Assembly: GCA_013335115.1 (NCBI GenBank)
Contig: JAAXWQ010000013.1
Location: 1-45,533 of the forward strand
Direction: 5' to 3'
Origin: Chlorobiaceae bacterium
GTDB taxonomy: Bacteria; Bacteroidota; Chlorobiia; Chlorobiales; Chlorobiaceae
DNA length: 45,533 bases
The first letter of the stretch is position 1. Each line of letters opens with the position of its first letter. The notes under the pieces are model-generated. The model did not search any database and was not told the DNA's origin. It saw nothing but the letters and a program-made list of their open reading frames with translations. A program made the translations under genes and the position numbers. This document shows, piece by piece, positions 1-45,533 of this stretch.

Positions 1-127
1 CGACAGCATTCGGGATGATCACGTTATCGGTCGCGATGACCCCGCCGATCGGCATCCCGTACCCCTGATGACAGTCAGGCATGAGGGCGACGTGATTGCG
101 CAGGAACGGGAGGTTTGCGAGGTTCTT
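1..127. repeat. Terminal direct repeat, left copy
   Basis: These 127 bases are identical to bases 45407-45533. An exact repeat at both ends of a contig is the signature of a circular or circularly permuted molecule assembled past its own start. The RtcB-like reading frame continues through the join without a break, which supports true circularity. The unique sequence is 45,406 bp. A physical 127-bp terminal redundancy in the virion is possible but less likely, because the repeat lies inside a gene. Confidence 0.95.
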
Positions 128-208
128 TGCCTGAGCAAGTGCGCCCGGCTCAATATCCGACACCCAGGAGTAAATGGGGTGCGATTCGGAAATGTATTTC
201 TGCATCAT
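1..208 (-). CDS. RtcB-like RNA ligase, N-terminal part (continues at the right end of the window)
   Basis: This is the 5' part of the RtcB-like gene whose remainder is at 44820-45533. The start is ATG at 208, in an ATGATG string that overlaps the TGA stop of the upstream gene (ATGA), implying translational coupling. The first residues read MMQKYISESHPIYSWV, then a stretch matching the short-RtcB N-terminus (AQAKNLANLPF, then ALMPDCHQGYGMPIGG). The PDCHxGYGMPIGG segment is the first metal-binding region of the family. Across the join the protein is 264 residues. See the right-hand entry for the missing C-terminal half. Confidence 0.85.
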   Translation of the reverse strand, partial: MMQKYISESHPIYSWVSDIEPGALAQAKNLANLPFLRNHVALMPDCHQGYGMPIGGVIATDNVIIPNAV

Positions 209-4962: not shown

Positions 4963-7326
4963 TTATCCCGTCTGATTAAGTTCCTGGGTGATAAGATGTT
5001 CCGCACTGGTCTCGGCCAATATGAACCGTTCTTGACCGGTCAGCATAGCAATGAGTGAAACCGGCGGCAGGTTTTGTGTCGAGATGTCTACGGTGAAGCC
5101 GGCCATAAGGCGGCCGGCCGTCAGGACAGCCGTGTTCGTGAATGATCCGCCGGGCATTCTGGCCCCGCCAGACCACTCTCCCGGCTGGATGCCGGTGATG
5201 ACCTCAAAGATGACCCCGGCAATCCCGCCGCCAGCCGTCAGGTTTCCCGCGGACAAAGATGCGGCCAGGTCAAGAATCGACCCCGGCATCATAGCTGACC
5301 CGCGTAGCCCGCCGGTCGTAAAAGCTGCCGATGCCGTCAGGCTCGCGCCGGACATGCGCCCGCCGCCAGAAAACGCCCCCGGCTCGATCGATGTCCGAGC
5401 GGTGAACGTCGCCCCGTTGATGATCGATGCCGCTGGATTGAGCAGCGACCCGGGAGCAAACGCGACCGAGGCCGTGAGTTGTGCCCCGCCAAGGTGCGCC
5501 GAACCGTGCAAGGCTCCGGCGGCAAGGCTTGCGGTGATGGAAATGCCTGCGCCGGTCATCCTCCCGCCAGCTCGCAGAGATCCCGAACTTATGGACGACG
5601 TGACAGGGAACGTCTGCCCGGCCATTCGCGCGGAACCGAGAAGATGGCCAGCGGTCAAAGTCCCAACAGCCGATAGCGTCGCCCCTGTGATCTTGCTGCC
5701 GCCCTTGATTGATCCCGCCGACAGCGAAGAGGTAGCTGAGAGCGTGGCTCCGGATATCCAGCCTGATACCCTCATCGACCCGGGCGTGAGTGTCGCCGTC
5801 ACACCGAGTGACGCCCCGGAGAGGGCGCCGCGCGCCCGAAGCGCCCCGGCCGTGATGGTGGCGCTTGCCGTGAGCGCCGACCCTGACAGCTTGGCCCCGC
5901 CCTTCAGCGATCCGCCCGACACGACCGCCGCCGCGGAAAGAGTTGCCCCAGGCATGACGGCGCGGACCATGAGCGAACCGGGGGCCAGGGCCGCGGTGGC
6001 GGACATCGCGGACCCCGGCATCGCCGCCGATCCTCTCAGAGCCCCGCCCGTCAGCGTGGCCGTGCTCGATAGCGCCGCACCTGATAACCGCGCCCCGCCC
6101 TTCAGGCTGCCTGATGTGATCGAGGCCGTAGTCGACAGGGACGCACCCGCCAGCGATCCATAGGCGCGCAGGGATCCGGAGCTTAGGCTTGCGGTCGCTG
6201 TCAGCGTGGCGCCGGTAAAGCTGCCATTCCCGCCACCCTCTTGATACTCGATGTACCCCGACATGATGACGGTCGTGTCGGTGTACTGTGGCGTCGGGTA
6301 TGTGCTCGGAGGCGTGGCGTAGGCGTCGCTGATGTTCTGGTTCTCAATTACAAGACCAGACCCGGCATCCGCATAGTACCGGACCTGCCCGTCGCCGACC
6401 GCGCCGATATAACAGTCCCCGCCGAGGGCGAGGTCGGAAAGAGACACCGACACCCACCCTGGTGTCGTCGTGATGGCTTGAGCGGACGATGCAAACAGCC
6501 GTGTACCGGGGTTACCTGAACCGCCGTCGTCGTCGTAGACGAGCAGCTTGACGTTGCACCCGGTCGTGTTGCCGTTGCAGTACAGCTTTAAAGTCTTCCC
6601 GACGCCAGACCCAACCGGGACATTAACTTTTGCCAGCACCACCGAACCGGCCGCTTCGACAAAGCTGCTGCCCCCTGCGGTCGTCTTTCCTGCTGTCGAA
6701 TATCCATTGGATGGGCGCAGCGACACCAGAGCCCCGATGTTGATCGCATTGGTGCTCATGGTGGCCGATGACGCGCCGGATGCGGCTGCGGTCGCCTGCA
6801 GGTAATACGAAATTGCGATGGACGTGTAGGTCGAATAGGCTGAATCTACGGCCTCCGTCCAGTTCCCGGCCGCGATATTTGCGGTAGCCTCTGCGCTCCA
6901 AGTGTAGTTACCGATCGGTGTCCCGAAAAGCGCGACAAGCATGTTCCCAGCCGTAACCGGTGTGATGCTTGTTGTGCCGGTCGTACCGCTGGCGTTGCGC
7001 CGAATGGTCGGGGTGACGTCGAGAGGTGTGGTCGTGTCGACGCCAGAAAAGGCTATGCAGGTGACCTGCGTCCGGGTTGTCCCGGTGAAGCTCCACGGAC
7101 CGGTATTGTTGGCATCATGGACACGGTAAAAGATTTCACCGCGACCACTCGTTCCGCTTGCTGAGTTGATCCTGGTCCAGCCAGCCGGCGCCGTTGTCGT
7201 GCCGCTGGTGGCCCGATCAATCTTAAGGGCAATCAGGACATCACCGATCTGCACACCTGACGGGGCCGCAAGGGATGCGGACGTCGTACCGCTGGCGGTT
7301 GATGTTGATCGGTAAGCGATTGCCAT
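4963..7326 (-). CDS. Large repeat-containing tail fibre/adhesin
   Basis: A 787-residue protein. Residues 1-205 resemble a phage beta-sandwich domain (APAGWTRINS, then FYRVHDANNTGPWSFTG). Residues about 210-365 form a second beta-rich domain (LKLYCNGNTTGCNVKLLVYDD). Residues about 371-746 are 17 tandem copies of a 22-residue unit of type SGATLSATASLTAGSLKGGARL. The last 40 residues are unique. Low complexity, repeats and location among fibre genes indicate an elongated virion adhesin. A terminator-like hairpin precedes it (7349-7392), so its level may be set separately from the upstream lysis genes. Confidence 0.7.
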   Translation of the reverse strand: MAIAYRSTSTASGTTSASLAAPSGVQIGDVLIALKIDRATSGTTTAPAGWTRINSASGTSGRGEIFYRVHDANNTGPWSFTGTTRTQVTCIAFSGVDTTTPLDVTPTIRRNASGTTGTTSITPVTAGNMLVALFGTPIGNYTWSAEATANIAAGNWTEAVDSAYSTYTSIAISYYLQATAAASGASSATMSTNAINIGALVSLRPSNGYSTAGKTTAGGSSFVEAAGSVVLAKVNVPVGSGVGKTLKLYCNGNTTGCNVKLLVYDDDGGSGNPGTRLFASSAQAITTTPGWVSVSLSDLALGGDCYIGAVGDGQVRYYADAGSGLVIENQNISDAYATPPSTYPTPQYTDTTVIMSGYIEYQEGGGNGSFTGATLTATASLSSGSLRAYGSLAGASLSTTASITSGSLKGGARLSGAALSSTATLTGGALRGSAAMPGSAMSATAALAPGSLMVRAVMPGATLSAAAVVSGGSLKGGAKLSGSALTASATITAGALRARGALSGASLGVTATLTPGSMRVSGWISGATLSATSSLSAGSIKGGSKITGATLSAVGTLTAGHLLGSARMAGQTFPVTSSISSGSLRAGGRMTGAGISITASLAAGALHGSAHLGGAQLTASVAFAPGSLLNPAASIINGATFTARTSIEPGAFSGGGRMSGASLTASAAFTTGGLRGSAMMPGSILDLAASLSAGNLTAGGGIAGVIFEVITGIQPGEWSGGARMPGGSFTNTAVLTAGRLMAGFTVDISTQNLPPVSLIAMLTGQERFILAETSAEHLITQELNQTG
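5089..6216 (-). repeat. Seventeen tandem 22-residue coding repeats
   Basis: The 66-bp unit encodes a Gly/Ala/Ser/Thr-rich 22-mer ending in (K/R)GGA(R/K)(L/M) with hydrophobic residues at regular positions, fitting a stack of short beta strands. Copies are diverged but in register; one has a two-residue insertion (about residue 630). Such arrays can change copy number by recombination and thereby alter fibre length. Confidence 0.85.
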
Positions 7327-43157: not shown

Positions 43158-43427
43158 AGCATCCGGACAGTTTGCAAACAGTGGGACGTGTCGCGCTCTA
43201 CCGTTATCCGATGGATTTCGGCGGGGCACGTCCAGGCAGTCCGGCTCCCTGGCGGTCAGTGGCGGGTTGACGTCTCATCGCTGGATGCCTGGAAGTCGCC
43301 GGACGGAAGGGTGAGCGAGATATGGGCATCCGTAAGCCGTACCGAGTCGAGGGAAAGCCGTACTGGCACGTTGACATTGATCGAAAGCGGCGGTCGCTCA
43401 AGACGGCAGACTTCCGGGAAGCGATGA
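43149..43427 (+). CDS. Excisionase-like winged-HTH protein
   Basis: A 92-residue protein: TVCKQWDVSRSTVIRWISAG followed by HVQAVRLPGGQWRVD is the MerR/excisionase (HTH_17) DNA-binding domain. The last 35 residues (VSRTESRESRTGTLTLIES) are read from the same DNA as the start of the integrase, a 106-base overlap in another frame, as seen for xis-int pairs. The start codon lies within a 9-bp inverted repeat and close to the predicted transcription start, so it may be translated from a nearly leaderless RNA. Confidence 0.72.
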   Translation: MYASIRTVCKQWDVSRSTVIRWISAGHVQAVRLPGGQWRVDVSSLDAWKSPDGRVSEIWASVSRTESRESRTGTLTLIESGGRSRRQTSGKR

Positions 43428-44335
43428 AGATGTACGGCGACCTCAAGCGCCGGTATCACCTGCAGCAGATGGAACCACCCACCGAAGAAATCCCCTCACT
43501 GCACACATTTACATCGGCCTATCTTGATTGGGTGAAGGAAACCCGATCCATCTACACCTGGCGATCATACCGAACGTCACTCCGAAAGTTGGAGACGATC
43601 GGGGATGTCCCGCTCGACAAGGTGACGACGGAACGGATCGACAAACTGGCCGCGAAGGAACTGAAGGCCGGAGTGTCAGCGATCAGTGTGAATACAATGC
43701 TCCGGCAGGTGAAGGCCGCTATGACAAAGGCGTTCGAATGGCATGGCGTCAAGCGTCCAAAGATCACGTTCCTGCCCGTCACAGCCCGCACCCCGTCCGT
43801 TGTGTCGGTTGATAAGTCCGAGGCTGTCCTGCGGGCTGCTGAGCCCCGTATTCGCGAAATGATACTTGCTTACTTGGTCACCGGCCGGAGACGGCAGGAA
43901 CTCCTGCGGTTGACATGGGAGGATATTGACCTGGCCGGTCATCGGTACTTTGTCCGGCAGACGAAAGCGCACCTCTCAGGGTGGTTCCCGATGCAGTCCA
44001 CGTTTGAAGAGATTTTGAAGGCAAGACCGGAAGAGGATCGGGATGGGGCGGTGTTTGGCGGGTTGCACCCGGACACGGTCACCCACTACATCGGGAAGCT
44101 GCTCAAGGCGGCAGGGACGAAGGCCAGGCTCCATGACCTCCGGCACACCTTCGCAACCGCGTACCTCGAGAACGGCGGCAGCATCCAAGCCCTTCGCAGG
44201 CTGCTCGGGCATCAGCAACTTTCGACCACTCAAATCTATGAGCACCTGGCCGAAACCCACCTCGCCGAAGAGCTGAAACGCGTACCCTTTGCGTACCCTT
44301 CAGAAGAAACCCGCGCCCAGCCTACACTTACCTAA
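43322..44335 (+). CDS. int: Tyrosine-family phage integrase
   Basis: A 337-residue integrase. The N-terminal arm-binding domain has YRVEGKPYWHVDIDRKRRSL. A core-binding SAM-like domain follows (FTSAYLDWVKETRSIYTWRS). The catalytic domain has TGRRRQELLRLTWEDIDLAG (Arg I), LHDLRHTFATAYLENGG (His-x-x-Arg), RRLLGHQQLSTTQIYEHL (His and nucleophile Tyr). All catalytic residues are present. It ends just before the attP core, the usual place. Confidence 0.95.
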   Translation: MGIRKPYRVEGKPYWHVDIDRKRRSLKTADFREAMKMYGDLKRRYHLQQMEPPTEEIPSLHTFTSAYLDWVKETRSIYTWRSYRTSLRKLETIGDVPLDKVTTERIDKLAAKELKAGVSAISVNTMLRQVKAAMTKAFEWHGVKRPKITFLPVTARTPSVVSVDKSEAVLRAAEPRIREMILAYLVTGRRRQELLRLTWEDIDLAGHRYFVRQTKAHLSGWFPMQSTFEEILKARPEEDRDGAVFGGLHPDTVTHYIGKLLKAAGTKARLHDLRHTFATAYLENGGSIQALRRLLGHQQLSTTQIYEHLAETHLAEELKRVPFAYPSEETRAQPTLT

Positions 44336-44337
44336 TT

Positions 44338-44384
44338 ACTCTTAATCATTAGGTTCGCGGTTCGATTCCGCGGCAGCCCACCAG
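44338..44384 (+). other. attP: attP core: 3' half of a tRNA-Lys(CTT) gene
   Basis: From 44339 the plus strand carries the anticodon loop CTCTTAA (anticodon CTT), stem half TCATT, variable loop AGGTT, the perfect T-arm CGCGG-TTCGATT-CCGCG, acceptor half GCAGCCC, then A and CCA at 44381-44383. The 5' half is absent: the bases before the loop (AATTA) differ at one position from the expected AATGA. This is the form expected when a phage integrates at a tRNA gene and restores its 3' end. Confidence 0.9.
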
Positions 44385-44391
44385 AAAAACG

Positions 44392-44427
44392 AAGCCCGGC
44401 GGGACGTTACAGTCTGCCGGGCTTTTT
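44392..44427 (+). terminator. Rho-independent terminator next to attP
   Basis: AAGCCCGGC (44392-44400) pairs with GCCGGGCTT (44416-44424) across a 15-nt loop, and five T residues end it (44423-44427). It serves the integrase transcript and could have come with the host tRNA gene. On the minus strand the hairpin is followed by CGTTTTT, so it may also stop leftward RNA from the RtcB operon. Confidence 0.88.
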
Positions 44428-44470
44428 CATTCTTGGTCAAGTCGGTGCAAAAGGTACGCAAATGCGTACC

Positions 44471-44608
44471 CTATTTTCGAGCACGCTTCCGCTTTCGCGG
44501 CTTTGTCCGCTTCATCCTGATCGTCAGGTAGAACGGCGTTGATGGACCAGGCAGGATGAAGTGCTCAATCGTGTTACACCAGAACGAGAAAATCGGCCAG
44601 TTGAACAT
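44471..44608 (-). CDS. Very small basic protein
   Basis: A 45-residue protein, MFNWPIFSFWCNTIEHFILP at the start and RMKRTKPRKRKRARK at the end: an aromatic, possibly membrane-touching N-terminus and a strongly basic C-terminus. A good ribosome site (GGAGGA) precedes the ATG, and the start overlaps the upstream stop by one base (TGATG). Function unknown. It is the last gene before attP. Confidence 0.55.
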   Translation of the reverse strand: MFNWPIFSFWCNTIEHFILPGPSTPFYLTIRMKRTKPRKRKRARK

Positions 44609-44823
44609 CAGTCCTCCTTTTCTTTGTAGGTGATCACGATCTTGACCTTCAGGATCGTTTCCCATCTTGCGAAAATGTCAAAAAGCAACACGTACAACAC
44701 TCCGTTTCTGAACGGCTTCCATGCCGGGTGCATGTGGCTTCCAGATTCGTTTATTCTGGCGTTGAAGATTTGGGAGCCTTTGCAGACCGGTTCGATCAGG
44801 AATTCGGCTTTGTTCAGCTTCAT
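44608..44823 (-). CDS. Small hypothetical protein after RtcB-like gene
   Basis: A 71-residue protein starting MKLNKAEFLIEPVCKGSQIF, ending in a Lys-rich segment. It overlaps the RtcB-like stop as ATGA, so it is translationally coupled to it. It does not resemble the missing RtcB C-terminal half (no HRKGAT, PGS or SHGAGR motif). A partner of the ligase is possible from context only. Confidence 0.55.
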   Translation of the reverse strand: MKLNKAEFLIEPVCKGSQIFNARINESGSHMHPAWKPFRNGVLYVLLFDIFARWETILKVKIVITYKEKED

Positions 44824-45533
44824 GCGTCACCGTCCCCGGCGATCTCTTCGTCCCTGATATGCTCGATCGCCGCGTAATTGTGGTGGACGTCAAGAATGCA
44901 TTCGATATCGTCCTCCCCATAGATAGCGTCGAATACCCTGTCCAACATGATCTTTCTGTTTTGCTTGGCAAATTCCAGGCAGTAGTTCATGGCCGCGAAA
45001 TACTCGCGCCCCGGCCGGCTGTCCATTGAGAGATGAGCGAGTTCACTATCCTCTCCGCATTCCTGCTTTGCGATTTCATGGTACGTCGACGCGACCTTCA
45101 GGCCAAAGTTTCGGCTCCCGGAATGGATCATCACCCATAACCGGCGGTCCTCATCCTCCTGAAACTCGATGAAGTGGTTTCCACTTCCAAGCGTCCCGAG
45201 CTGCTTTCGCGCGCTGCCCAGCTCCTGCTGGATGATCGCAATATCCGGAGCCTGATCGAACCCCGTCCACTCCTGGGCTTCATTCTGGTGGTTGAACCCC
45301 ACCGGCACGGACTGGCGAACACGGCCCATGATCTCCTTCAGCGCGCCGGTTTCGATCCCGGTAATGCTGGTTCTGATCGCAATCATTCCGCACCCGATAT
45401 CGACCCCGACAGCATTCGGGATGATCACGTTATCGGTCGCGATGACCCCGCCGATCGGCATCCCGTACCCCTGATGACAGTCAGGCATGAGGGCGACGTG
45501 ATTGCGCAGGAACGGGAGGTTTGCGAGGTTCTT
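44820..45533 (-). CDS. RtcB-like RNA ligase, truncated at the C-terminus (main part)
   Basis: Read with 1-208 the protein has 264 residues. It keeps NAVGVDIGCGMIAIRT (Asp and Cys metal ligands), LGTLGSGNHFIEFQ (Asn-His), WVMIHSGSRNFGLKVA (His) and ILDVHHNYAAIEH (His). Family members of about 380-480 residues continue with HRKGATR, a GTP-binding PGSxGT and a SHGAGR with the guanylylated His; here the frame ends soon after HHNYAAIEH with a short acidic end. It could be an inactive paralogue, an RNA-end-binding protein or one needing a host partner. It is the penultimate small-gene block before attP. Confidence 0.88.
   Translation of the reverse strand, partial: KNLANLPFLRNHVALMPDCHQGYGMPIGGVIATDNVIIPNAVGVDIGCGMIAIRTSITGIETGALKEIMGRVRQSVPVGFNHQNEAQEWTGFDQAPDIAIIQQELGSARKQLGTLGSGNHFIEFQEDEDRRLWVMIHSGSRNFGLKVASTYHEIAKQECGEDSELAHLSMDSRPGREYFAAMNYCLEFAKQNRKIMLDRVFDAIYGEDDIECILDVHHNYAAIEHIRDEEIAGDGDA
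45407..45533. repeat. Terminal direct repeat, right copy
   Basis: Exact copy of bases 1-127. Joining the two gives a closed 45,406-bp circle in which the RtcB-like frame is continuous. Confidence 0.95.

Follow-up and report, generated by a model that had tools for sequence, protein, structure and literature searches.

A temperate phage rtcB-like gene that keeps its metal ligands and ends before the guanylylation half

RtcB ligases work through a cycle that requires GTP and a conserved histidine, in which cyclic-phosphate hydrolysis and ligation take place only after the histidine has been guanylylated (PMC10630183). The title of Chakravarty and Shuman 2012, cited in PMC9223846, names both steps as GTP-dependent. 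Full-length phage RtcB is thought to mend tRNAs cleaved by host defence (PMC3203893; PMC7824862). Binding by RtcB without catalysis has also been described for RtcB-RtcR complexes (RtcR CARF binding; PMC9650030). Some phage rtcB genes in sequence records are short or interrupted. The product of Brevibacterium phage AGM5 gp49 (L204:2474-3067) has 197 aa, is annotated as an RNA-splicing ligase and breaks after HSGSR; this 594-bp gene is 99.8-100% identical across 32 records (H104-H135), and its closest relatives are full length. In Bacillus phage CM1, rtcB is split into N and C frames with an unidentified ORF between them.

The window analysed here is a whole contig of 45,533 nucleotides (C20) in a bin of 29 contigs and 2.1 Mb. 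Its two ends are identical over exactly 127 bases, positions 45407..45533 (no strand) being a second copy of bases 1-127. Artefactual direct terminal repeats of 127 bp are known in single-contig SPAdes phage assemblies, where they are a sign of completeness (PMC9331655). The terminal identity therefore indicates a closed circle from an assembly at k = 127, with the second copy being the overlap of a circular contig and no true repeat, and a circle of 45,406 bp is left when one copy is dropped. The circle represents a contractile-tailed temperate phage with genes for the terminase, portal, protease, major head protein, sheath, and baseplate. An ORF of 787 aa without a PHROG match lies near the tail genes (4963-7326, minus strand). 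No close relatives of the phage were found by megablast of 24.5 kb of its sequence against GenBank phages, and the relatives of its terminase and integrase in viral contigs share only 28-34% identity.

The rtcB-like frame runs on the minus strand from 208 to 1 and then from 45406 to 44820, giving 795 nt, or 264 codons plus a stop. The ATG of its 5' part (1..208, minus strand) is located at 208-206 and overlaps the stop of the preceding ORF (205-402), and its 3' part (44820..45406, minus strand) holds codons about 70-264 and the stop. The original prediction placed a frame of 264 residues over the circle join; the count is right, but a literal join of 45533 to 1 counts 127 bases twice and breaks the frame. 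The protein begins with MMQKYISESHP and ends with AAIEHIRDEEIAGDGDA before the stop. Residues 26-256 match positions 1-292 of the 426 in the Pfam RtcB profile (PF01139; E = 2.1e-62), and the score of 212 bits, against a curated cut-off of 27, assigns the protein to the family by sequence over a part of the profile only. Residues 7-252 match columns 61-320 of the 459 in PHROG 1075 (tRNA splicing ligase; E 2e-72).

The prediction further described an RtcB homologue with all N-terminal metal ligands present, and the Pfam profile search and the alignment to P. horikoshii RtcB agree on this. In the alignment, D72, C75, H147, H164, and H245 correspond to P. horikoshii D95, C98, H203, H234, and H329, respectively. 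On the minus strand, D72 and C75 (VDIGCGM) are encoded at 45390..45401, N146 and the ligand H147 (GSGNHF) at 45174..45179, H164 (MIHSGSRN) at 45123..45125, and H245 at 44880..44882, the last being the second of the two adjacent histidines of DVHHNYA. Of the 51 columns that at least 95% of relatives conserve, the retained 252 residues keep 49 and depart at two, with G144S and P196S; the serine of G144S also occurs in P. horikoshii RtcB. Codon usage is phage-like in frame through to the end of the gene, and from its sequence the retained part shows no clear sign of decay. The terminal branch of the gene measures 0.63 against a mean of 0.38 (sd 0.16), the fifth longest of 70, which weakly fits relaxed constraint, with close relatives being unsampled.

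A structure model was obtained for the 237 of 264 residues that are contiguous in the window, using an alignment of relatives that included full-length ones (mean pLDDT 88, pTM 0.87). Its confident matches in the PDB, 16 in all, are RtcB without exception, and the Mn/GMP complex 4dwq ranks first among them (TM 0.77 by query length). The model shows kinship with RtcB and says nothing on whether the fragment folds alone.

Homology to full-length relatives stops after HNYAAIEH, and the protein ends about 12 residues past DVHHNYA. The truncation junction, as aligned with these relatives (44820..44858, minus strand), consists of a non-homologous tail of about 12 residues, IRDEEIAGDGDA, and the stop. 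HRKGAT, PGSxGT, and SHGAGR are missing from the 264-aa protein in the alignment, in keeping with the predicted loss of the guanylylation half beside a retained metal site, and the C-terminal KG segment likewise lies beyond the end of the frame. A profile of the RtcB C-terminal half, derived from full-length relatives, was searched at maximum sensitivity against all six frames of the region around the junction (44200-44950) and of the entire phage. It gave no significant match (best E 0.42), and the guanylylated histidine (H404 in P. horikoshii, in the SHGAGR motif) is missing from the protein and from every phage frame. The expectation that no simple frameshift lies behind the short frame is borne out in the same way, for a frameshift or an assembly indel hiding the C-terminal half is ruled out by its absence from all frames. 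The same absence rules out a split of rtcB by an intron or a homing endonuclease, despite the precedent of Bacillus phage 278BB001. An Rfam search of 43300-45533 found no intron; a sub-threshold match to an archaeal snoRNA inside rtcB was taken as chance. Since the C-terminal half is absent everywhere in the phage, it has been lost rather than shifted out of frame or split off.

The rtcB stop overlaps the start of the next gene as ATGA. This gene, an ORF of 71 aa (44608..44823, minus strand), is followed by an ORF of 45 aa (44471..44607, minus strand) whose start overlaps the stop of the 71-aa ORF (TGATG). Both look like genuine genes from their sequences, given the phage-like codon usage of the 71-aa ORF in its frame and the strong AAGGAGG ribosome site of the 45-aa ORF, and the coupled gene foreseen after the rtcB stop is thus supported. 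The 71-aa ORF has no relatives in PHROG, in viral contigs, or in the other genomes of the family; three weak matches in viral contigs fall within an unrelated 35-codon frame and were regarded as chance. Farther along, a sequence resembling the 3' half of a tRNA-Lys(CTT) and ending in CCA forms a putative attP core (44340..44383, plus strand). It is incomplete as a tRNA, and no complete tRNA genes were found in the phage. A tyrosine-type integrase-like gene adjoins it (43322..44335, plus strand), assigned by inspection from its HDLRHTFAT...GH motif and weak relatives in viral contigs. Past the attP, the 45-aa ORF, the 71-aa ORF, and the rtcB-like gene follow in this order, all on the minus strand. 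The GC content is 47% at 44500-44800, in the stretch from the attP to the junction, versus about 57% phage-wide, which fits a different segment placed beside the attachment site. GCGTACC(C) repeats flank the putative attP core (44280-44298 and 44453-44471), one pair forming an inverted repeat; judging from their sequence and position these are possible integrase arm sites, with counts over the whole window just modestly above chance.

A 16S gene was sought in the bin and not found, but an FMO protein identifies a green sulfur bacterium. The tRNA-Lys-like attachment sequence has no other copy in the bin, allowing up to 3 mismatches, and a search of the 97 other Chlorobiales genomes with up to 2 mismatches was likewise empty; the exact pattern of the sequence has no match in viral contigs. 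The nearest terminase relatives within Chlorobiales share just 33-38% identity. The phage may therefore have been mis-binned and originate from a different bacterium in the sample, as the missing attachment sequence suggests. The bin outside the phage gave no match to RtcB, so that interference with a host RtcB would have no known target there.

Whether the short form is shared was assessed with relatives gathered from viral contigs, species genomes, and the bin's own family, with every frame measured. Of the 162 distinct viral relatives, 161 contain HGAGR, all but the one in Brevibacterium phage AGM1. Among 58 genome relatives, 54 carry HGAGR, three are cut by contig ends, and one is short (L102, 118 aa), so HGAGR occurs in 54 of the 55 that no contig end cuts. 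The same end point was found in none of the 162 viral and 58 genome relatives, and a degenerate junction pattern had zero matches in viral contigs. The view of the original prediction that the short form is established is not supported by this search, in which related phages with the same end point were sought and 161 of 162 viral relatives proved full length. The ATGA overlap is also expected from an in-frame deletion fusing rtcB to the tail of its neighbour and hence does not prove an old architecture. The nearest relatives of the retained part are only about 57% identical, which means that the immediate lineage of the phage rtcB is unsampled.

Among GenBank phages, the retained part finds matches in 631 records and the C-terminal half of a relative in 558, a gap that is partly made up by the 32 Brevibacterium records; the only Halorubrum record opened, HF2, has a gene of 454 residues that is merely divergent. 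The short genome relative (L102:2980-3333, genome RUG14783) holds the N-terminal 75 residues of RtcB at 72% identity followed by unrelated sequence, and over about 1.2 kb neither of the two remaining forward frames showed a continuation of RtcB. Short or interrupted chromosomal RtcB fragments were also observed in Chlorobiaceae (L284 in G064, L285 in G083, and L286 in G062; also L039 in G016). The rtcB query went unmatched in 60 of the 86 genomes of the bin's family, and rtcB seems to have been lost repeatedly in Chlorobiaceae.

We consider it probable that the C-terminal third of the gene was removed on the phage's own branch, leaving a ligase-dead remnant that would be still translated and uneroded. 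By this account, about 120-140 C-terminal residues of RtcB and the start of the neighbouring gene would have been lost together when the end of the genome beside the attachment site underwent a deletion or replacement, so that from about codon 252 rtcB would now run on in frame into the final dozen codons of the former neighbour. The ATGA overlap of the lost neighbour with the 71-aa gene would have survived, and the truncated gene would go on being translated. The predicted product would comprise the half of the RtcB fold that binds metal, devoid of the guanylylated histidine and the guanine pocket, and the GTP-dependent cycle of cyclic-phosphate hydrolysis and ligation would not be possible for it; lacking the histidine, it is expected neither to ligate nor to carry out GTP-driven healing of ends. 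The end of the Pfam match at position 292 of 426 supports the deletion, as do the other broken RtcBs known from AGM gp49 and the Chlorobiaceae chromosomal scraps. In its favour, too, are the loss of alignment just past HNYAAIEH, the lack of a C-terminal half in every phage frame, the full length of nearly all relatives examined, and the lower GC beside the attachment site. What counts against a remnant is the lack of decay in 252 residues, the open frame overlapping both neighbours, and the confident predicted fold (pLDDT 88). A recent loss would explain these features, and so would selection for a non-catalytic role.

Such a role, in which the metal-site fold binds RNA 2',3'-cyclic-phosphate ends or a partner and the short form is kept to protect or sense cleaved tRNA or to block RtcB or nuclease complexes, appears unlikely on balance. 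It would account for the retention of every metal ligand and of nearly all strict columns (49 of 51) and for the tight overlap with a genuine downstream gene, and it is compatible with the confident RtcB-like model matching the Mn/GMP complex 4dwq. Elsewhere RtcB can act by binding alone, for example with the RtcR CARF (PMC9650030), and a different short RtcB of 197 aa stands in 32 Brevibacterium phage records. However, that AGM form is broken at another place, and even the last metal ligand is missing from it; the two hence do not point to a common short design, and the end point seen here recurs in no relative. RtcB is moreover described as a single conserved fold, whose GTP site and active site would be incomplete without the missing part, and the phage has no complete tRNA genes in a bin where no other RtcB was seen. 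A broader version of the idea is quite unlikely in our estimation: that in phages the loss of the guanylylation half has repeatedly made RtcB a ligase-dead, metal-binding protein for end recognition, with the 264-aa protein capping or sensing 2',3'-cyclic-phosphate ends from host anticodon nucleases, perhaps jointly with the 71- and 45-aa products of the overlapping genes.

A chimeric join near 44820-44860, or a minority variant in a population with the full-length gene, is very unlikely. The assembly is of metagenome type and was closed at k = 127, and the end point comes from one source only, its junction pattern having zero matches in viral contigs; yet the k-mer join lies at 1/45406, nearly 600 bp away from the truncation, a frameshift is ruled out with no C-terminal half downstream, and the flanking genes are orderly, the 71-aa ORF having phage-like codon usage with exact ATGA and TGATG overlaps. 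A split ligase, with the C-terminal half supplied in trans from a phage or host gene or separated by an intron or homing endonuclease, is the most improbable of these readings. Bacillus phage 278BB001 provides a precedent (N half, HTH endonuclease, C half), but the C-terminal half is nowhere in the 45-kb phage, no other RtcB was matched in the bin, and the Rfam intron search of 43300-45533 was empty; for the phage itself this reading is largely refuted.

If the likelier reading of a deletion remnant holds, automatic annotation would misname as an RNA ligase a protein that lacks the nucleotidyl-transfer residue, a mistake already made in the 32 AGM-type records. If instead the short protein still binds RNA ends, recognition would be separated from ligation in RtcB, pointing to a new phage answer to tRNA-cleaving defences.

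The split rtcB of Bacillus phage 278BB001 (gp97/gp95; L211) resembles the present gene as an interrupted phage rtcB with a short N-terminal frame, whereas its C half is present after the HTH homing endonuclease gene and is gone here. AGM gp49 is likewise a phage RtcB without the guanylylation half, its frame intact and still annotated, but it breaks earlier, right after HSGSR, so that the last metal ligand is also absent, and its own relatives are full length; its truncation is an event independent of that of the 264-aa form. The phage RtcB ligases (PHROG 1075, PF01139) share the metal ligands and up to about 57% identity with the 264-aa protein, which stops before the guanylylation histidine motif found in 161 of 162 viral relatives. 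In comparison with P. horikoshii RtcB (1uc2, 4dwq), the counterpart of the residues past 336, including the GMP-carrying His404, is missing; the ligands of the two metals are shared, and so, in the model, is the fold as far as about residue 336.
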